A DNA stretch of 35,416 nt, taken from Actinomycetota bacterium. Lineage in GTDB: Bacteria > Actinomycetota > Actinomycetes > Nanopelagicales > Nanopelagicaceae. Every line of letters begins with the position of its first letter. Position 1 is the stretch's first letter. The position numbers and the translations under genes are program-made. Below are positions 27,503 through 28,383 of this stretch, in pieces. The notes below the pieces were generated by a model. It was not told where the DNA came from. It was given only the letters and a program-made list of their open reading frames with translations, and made no database searches. The stretch spans positions 1 to 35,416 of the forward strand of contig CANFXM010000011.1 in the NCBI GenBank assembly GCA_947451045.1, read 5' to 3'.

Positions 27503-27769
27503 ATGCCAAAATCGAAATTGCGTAAGAAAGTTATTGAGAAGCGCACACACGAACATGAGGATGTTATTCACGCTCCTCACGCTCCGCTCGAGAGCCCTGC
27601 GTGGCTTGCTCCCACAATGGTGAGCGCATTTCTTATTGGTCTTCTCTGGATTGTTACTTTTTATGTCACCCAGACTCGCTATCCAATTCCTGGAATTGGG
27701 GCATGGAACATGATCGTAGGTTTTTCATTTATTGGCGTAGGTTTTTCACTCGCAACGAAATGGCGCTAA
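27503..27769 (+). CDS. crgA: Cell-division protein CrgA
   Basis: This 88-residue protein belongs to the divisome scaffold family found in actinobacteria, where it interacts with FtsZ, FtsQ and penicillin-binding proteins. A basic N-terminus (MPKSKLRKKV) and a short charged linker precede two membrane helices (about 33-53 and 66-84) with the conserved WxxPTMxxxxLIGLxWIVxFYVT and IPGIGxWNxxxGFxxIxxGF patterns. No ribosome site is visible. TAACTT at 27491-27496 lies six bases before the ATG, consistent with a leaderless message. Confidence 0.95.
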   Translation: MPKSKLRKKVIEKRTHEHEDVIHAPHAPLESPAWLAPTMVSAFLIGLLWIVTFYVTQTRYPIPGIGAWNMIVGFSFIGVGFSLATKWR

Positions 27770-27783
27770 TTACACGCTTGTAA

Positions 27784-27815
27784 TTCTCCACACCGTGGAT
27801 AACTTCTGTGGATAA
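27784..27815. promoter_or_regulatory. Cluster of three DnaA-box-like sites
   Basis: In the 50-base gap between the convergent crgA and rhomboid genes lie three 9-mers close to the DnaA box TTATCCACA: TTCTCCACA on the plus strand (27784-27792, one mismatch), CGTGGATAA (27794-27802, reverse strand, one mismatch) and TGTGGATAA (27807-27815, reverse strand, perfect). The last two are part of a direct repeat GTGGATAACT with a 13-base period. DnaA binding is inferred from sequence only. Confidence 0.6.
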
Positions 27816-27819
27816 CTCT

Positions 27820-28383
27820 TCAGCGCTTTTTTGTTAACAAAAGTACAGAAGCCAATGTTCCACCAATGAGGCCGCCTAAGTGGGCGTGCCAATCCACGCC
27901 GCCCAATGCGAAACCGAGTGCAAAGTTAATTCCAATAATTACTGCAATCGAGCGAATATCTGCGCCGATTTTTTTACCCACTACAACCATTGCTCCGAAG
28001 AGTCCGAAGATAGCTCCGGATGCTCCAACAGATGGTTGGTTTGAGACAGCAAGATAATTTGAAAGCAATGATCCTGCGATAAGAGAGACAAAAAAGATAA
28101 ATATAAATTTAGTTTTTCCAAAAGCGGCTTCAATCGGATTACCTAAAACCATCAACGCATACATATTAAAACCAAGATGAAAAATTCCGCCATGTGTGAG
28201 TGCAACAGTGAGGTATCTCCACCATTCACCTTGCGCGGTTCCATGAACTTGGCCATCACTGAGTACTGCTTCTTTGACTAGAAATAAATGCTGTTGCAAA
28301 TTTGGTACAAGAAGTTGAACTAAGTAAGCAGCGCAAATGATTGTTATTAATGACAGTGTTGCGGAACGCTTCATCAGCGTCAT
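27820..28383 (-). CDS. Rhomboid-family intramembrane serine protease
   Basis: This 187-residue protein has about six membrane segments. The catalytic serine is Ser122 in VGASGAIFGLFG and the histidine is His168 in DWHAHLGGLIGG. The EWWRYLTVALTHGGIFHLGFNMYAL segment (split over residues 53-77) is the rhomboid L1/H2 region with the oxyanion histidine. It cleaves membrane proteins within the bilayer. Rhomboid genes next to ppiA and crgA are common in actinobacteria. Two ATGs (28383 and 28374) are possible starts. Confidence 0.93.
   Translation of the reverse strand: MTLMKRSATLSLITIICAAYLVQLLVPNLQQHLFLVKEAVLSDGQVHGTAQGEWWRYLTVALTHGGIFHLGFNMYALMVLGNPIEAAFGKTKFIFIFFVSLIAGSLLSNYLAVSNQPSVGASGAIFGLFGAMVVVGKKIGADIRSIAVIIGINFALGFALGGVDWHAHLGGLIGGTLASVLLLTKKR

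Follow-up and report, generated by a model that had tools for sequence, protein, structure and literature searches.

Why do three DnaA-box-like 9-mers crowd into 32 bases between the convergent crgA and rhomboid genes of a Nanopelagicaceae bacterium, outside its replication origin? The question was raised by an original prediction on the window, that is, the whole stretch of DNA analysed here (35,416 nucleotides, contig CANFXM010000011.1), which offered two readings of the cluster: a DnaA-titration or regulatory site, or evidence of a shifted origin. Mapping the locus across relatives and more distant genomes, we found that the three 9-mers (positions 27784-27815) are the right half of a composite element of about 49 bp, the left half of which is a palindrome. 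The element, which reads AATTACA-N4-TGTAATT followed by boxes I(+), II(-), and III(-), is set out with its neighbors in Table 1.

Table 1. Features of the element, its neighboring genes, and further near-copies of the palindrome in the same genome
Feature	Position	Strand	Remarks
Composite element (palindrome + three-box DnaA module)	27768..27816	+	best R1 match, 58.8 bits, E 7e-16
Palindrome AATTACACGCTTGTAATT (TTACA-N4-TGTAA)	27768..27785	.	start within crgA stop codon
DnaA box I TTCTCCACA	27784..27792	+	1 mismatch; head-to-head with box II
DnaA box II TTATCCACG	27794..27802	-	1 mismatch; 1-bp gap to box I
DnaA box III TTATCCACA	27807..27815	-	perfect; 4-bp gap to box II, 13-bp period
crgA	27503..27769	+	Pfam PF06781; neighbor in most genomes
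Rhomboid protease gene	27820..28383	-	Pfam PF01694; convergent neighbor
1-mismatch palindromes	G000:C10:1726-1743 (L113, L155); G000:C50:8268-8285 (L115, L156)		upstream of whiB-family gene and infA

Three DnaA boxes beyond chance

The three 9-mers, one of them perfect, are present where they had been described, in the only free space between the two convergent genes (27770-27819, 50 bp), whose products Pfam confirms as CrgA and Rhomboid. The 13-base-period direct repeat reported for two of them corresponds to the minus-strand boxes II and III, and the distance to recF, given as about 7.5 kb, measures 6.5 kb to its near end and 7.6 kb to its start. Three non-overlapping boxes with at most one mismatch within 32 bases appeared in 0 of 1000 first-order Markov simulations, and a chance cluster is thus rejected. 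In the genome-wide count of perfect boxes that had been proposed as a check, TTRTCCACA is scarce, with 16 copies vs 30 for the reversed control and 5 of the 16 on the contig carrying dnaA. Single boxes with at most one mismatch are about as frequent in the window as chance predicts (17 observed vs 17.1 expected). The palindrome had been overlooked in the original prediction.

Conservation within and beyond Nanopelagicaceae

Relatives from Candidatus Planktophila and other Nanopelagicaceae, collected via CrgA, carry the same arrangement downstream of crgA: AATTACA-N4-TGTAATTC, 0 or 2 bases, TCCACA, 2-3 bases, GTGG(A/G)TAA, 4 bases, and TGTGGATAA. The TCCACA core of box I is retained in these relatives, an invariance that is partly due to the construction of the search pattern, and the palindrome is found in 87/87 collected sequences though it was absent from the collecting pattern. 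Absence from close relatives, which the original prediction had named as evidence against itself, is therefore not what we observe. In many Planktophila, box II is TTACCCACA and box I is degenerate (CAATCCACA, CTCTCCACA), and in some species (L074, L081, L082, L093) the orientation of the entire element with respect to crgA is reversed. Planktophila-like crgA loci also occur in metagenome-assembled genomes titled Bifidobacterium breve or Streptomyces griseus (L034, L036, L073, L099), titles that look mislabeled.

A sequence-only model of the element (R1) matches all 84 good-quality Nanopelagicaceae genomes, covering 17/17 genera. With model E-values taken as rough, 213 of the 267 good genomes of the class have matches at E<=0.1, many of them full-length at 1e-6 to 1e-10, and the best full-length matches in other families of the class reach 4e-10. 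Outside the class, where a broader model (R2) was used, full-length matches are found in G470 (8e-11), G468 (5e-10), and G446 (1e-7), and in both G446 and G432 the element again lies 3' of a Pfam-confirmed crgA. The same placement, 3' of and near crgA (PF06781), holds for 73/73 of the strong non-Nanopelagicaceae genomes of the class that were checked, mostly within about 0.3 kb on the same contig.

One of the families with the element, f4, which we take by inference to be Mycobacteriaceae, encodes a CrgA closely similar to those in the solved structures 9NM2/2MMU and has the gene order dnaA-recF-gyrB-gyrA-ppi-crgA-trpG-pknB. In one f4 genome (G271, C1:25690-25772, L247), two element-like matches lie back to back 3' of crgA. 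A literature search combining crgA with DnaA-box clusters gave no link and no description of the element in the papers covered.

Beyond sequence similarity, the geometry of the boxes is itself conserved. The triple I(+), gap, II(-), gap, III(-) is present in 76 of 80 regions from other families of the class, compared to 5 of 400 simulated regions above threshold. Of these regions, 50 were taken from model hits and 30 were chosen by crgA alone; the latter, which are the fair test, have the three-box module in 26/30. The two gaps are 1 and 4 bp in 34 regions and 2 and 3 bp in 23, so that the distance from box I to box III stays constant at 23 bp. Families f13, f14, f18, f5, f11, and f28 have the module in mirror image with respect to the palindrome, the gaps being unchanged. 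Boxes without a recognizable palindrome are seen in genomes of f17 and of the Streptomyces-like f19, the latter having the triple.

The element follows the origin region rather than crgA

In most Planktophila among the 17 complete genomes of the family, the element is located +9 to +11 kb from dnaA; in some it is at -28 to -31 kb, and in 24 other complete genomes the distance is 10-84 kb, with a median of 15.9 kb. Four Planktophila genomes (G073, G028, G085, and G091) have crgA displaced to about -31 kb, and their element has remained at +9.2 to +9.4 kb; G085 has it at the rhomboid 3' end. In G016, the element is found just upstream of gyrB, apart from crgA (L255 14459-14507). Since the element stays near dnaA where crgA has left, its position is bound to the origin region and not to crgA, and a crgA-specific regulatory site as its sole role is rejected.

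The palindrome resembles an operator

The only perfect copy of the palindrome in its own genome is the one at the element. Three more places match with one mismatch, and two of these have a promoter-like setting, upstream of a whiB-family gene (Pfam PF02467) and of infA. A lone palindrome 50-130 bp upstream of the whiB-family gene and infA recurs in Planktophila, which gives it the look of an operator for a dimeric regulator, and one f4 genome has it upstream of another gene as well. We therefore think that a dimeric DNA-binding protein probably uses the palindrome as its operator, and we regard the copies at the whiB-family gene and infA as possible members of an uncharacterized regulon. For BldD, which was considered as a candidate for this protein, the operator consists of half-sites TnACnC and GnGTnA around a 1-bp center; the half-sites of the palindrome resemble this consensus, and its center is 2 bp, one base longer. 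Several further palindromes, of type GACACAGGTGTGTC, are seen downstream of crgA in one f26 genome (L328).

A candidate DnaA control locus outside oriC

The deep conservation of boxes, spacing, and origin-proximal position argues for the first reading of the original prediction, a DnaA-titration or regulatory site. We consider it probable that the element is a conserved DnaA-binding control locus outside oriC, similar in role to datA or DARS and equipped with the operator of a dimeric protein, and it probably tunes the timing of the start of chromosome replication. The boxes match the published high-affinity sites TTATCCACA and TTGTCCACA (PMC4285127). Moreover, TTACCCACA is common to the genome's own oriC and box II of many Planktophila, as expected if DnaA reads both.

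DnaA would bind head-to-head on boxes I and II and, on box III, in tandem with the DnaA of box II, giving a small, defined DnaA complex beside a dimeric protein on the palindrome. Because the element is close to the origin, it would be duplicated almost at once after initiation; the amount or nucleotide state of free DnaA would then be changed, either in the manner of datA, by sequestration or hydrolysis, or in that of DARS, by ADP release, and this change would contribute to the timing of the following initiation. What we observe is the boxes with their geometry, the palindrome, the conservation and position of the element, and its independence from crgA; that DnaA binds, that a partner protein takes part, and in which direction the effect goes are inferred. 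The features that fit this control locus less well are that f19 and f17 do without the palindrome, that box I is often degenerate, and that the box number and spacing differ from what bulk titration and DARS, respectively, would lead one to expect.

Titration, reactivation, and other explanations

In one specific form of such a locus, which we find plausible rather than probable, the boxes would act shortly after replication of the origin region, simply by sequestering DnaA or by stimulating ATP hydrolysis. The datA locus of Escherichia coli, which limits initiation, is likewise a DnaA-box locus outside oriC, and the element resembles a datA or titration site in that its boxes are clustered outside oriC beyond chance and its origin-proximal position would mean early duplication. 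Unlike the element, datA depends on IHF. Bacillus subtilis also has DnaA-box clusters outside oriC and close to it, which restrain initiation; it differs in having several clusters per genome (six were deleted together in a reported strain), and we know of no palindrome reported for them. The element is near the origin in all complete genomes checked, a location suited to titration (PMC12371093). Both PMC12371093 and PMC5742627 support a possible restraining effect of origin-proximal boxes and clusters on initiation, the latter citing a Streptomyces coelicolor DnaA-box cluster as repressing untimely initiation (Smulczyk-Krawczyszyn et al. 2006). The box triple is found 3' of crgA in Streptomyces-like genomes (this gene is SCO3854 in S. 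coelicolor), which lack the palindrome. The S. coelicolor clusters are reportedly named H69 and D78, and the former may be the one on the crgA side. The Streptomyces counterpart of the element may overlap a published DnaA-box cluster. However, three is a low number of boxes for bulk titration, which would need neither the strict geometry nor the palindrome.

A second specific form, possible but somewhat doubtful, is reactivation of the DARS type, in which head-to-head DnaA on boxes I and II would release ADP and so make ATP-DnaA, and the protein on the palindrome would take the part that IHF and Fis play at DARS2. DARS1 and DARS2 of E. coli are non-coding like the element, with the same order and orientation of three boxes, (+)(-)(-), and a spacing conserved within the lineage; boxes I and II are opposed as in DARS, where DnaA is bound head-to-head (PMC8682772), and the geometry of the element is conserved across the class. 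However, the gaps are 5/3 in the DARS cores but 1/4 here and 1/4 or 2/3 in most relatives, and the element belongs to a different phylum, lies near oriC rather than mid-arm, and has a palindrome in place of IHF/Fis sites.

The element could also be a site for a transcription factor that acts on crgA or genes close by; the box-like repeats would then be recognized by this factor instead of DnaA. We think this unlikely: the palindrome does occur upstream of the whiB-family gene, infA, and other genes, but the C10 and C50 promoters of the same genome have no three-box module beside it, the element at crgA is 3' of the gene, it is near dnaA even without crgA, and its 9-mers match DnaA boxes.

A bidirectional transcription terminator, suggested by the convergent position in this genome and the inverted repeats, is very improbable. 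Folding is little better than that of shuffled sequences (z -0.9 to -1.7), the element has no terminator-like match and no Rfam family, the variable base of boxes I and II shows no co-variation (30/57 Watson-Crick vs 48% expected), box III is conserved yet unpaired, and the G016 element lies upstream of gyrB instead. On folding, Rfam, terminator search, and co-variation, we reject a conserved hairpin, terminator, or structured RNA.

Least of all, with hardly any probability left to it, the element could be a second or shifted replication origin, as the boxes near dnaA had suggested, but a canonical oriC adjoins dnaA, the element (27768-27819) has neither an AT-rich unwinding region nor a DnaA-trio, and in the complete relative G067 the GC skew does not switch at the element (+9.2 kb). 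The genome's own dnaA is on contig C33, and its canonical origin, in the intergenic region 3' of dnaA (L154 100-222), has the DnaA-trio-type sequence TATATATAAGTAGTAGTAGTAACTAG (DnaA-trio-like TAGTAGTAGTAA), two TTATCCACA boxes, and two TTACCCACA boxes. The skew minimum of G067 falls at about -32 kb, across dnaA from the element, as judged from sampled stretches of this one genome, which are noisy near dnaA.

Implications for Actinomycetota

DnaA regulation outside oriC is poorly known in Actinomycetota. As a single-copy element of about 50 bp whose location is constant throughout the class and in some further classes, the locus is an exact and easily deleted target, and it makes two questions testable: whether a datA- or DARS-like system exists outside gammaproteobacteria, and which protein reads the palindrome. 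More tentatively, the element may be an ancient DnaA-regulatory locus of the whole phylum Actinomycetota, in which a DARS-like three-box complex is combined with the operator of a conserved dimeric regulator with whiB-type division genes and infA among its further targets, linking replication initiation to growth and division. If this is true, a phylum-wide locus ties initiation to growth and division in a lineage that includes the mycobacteria.
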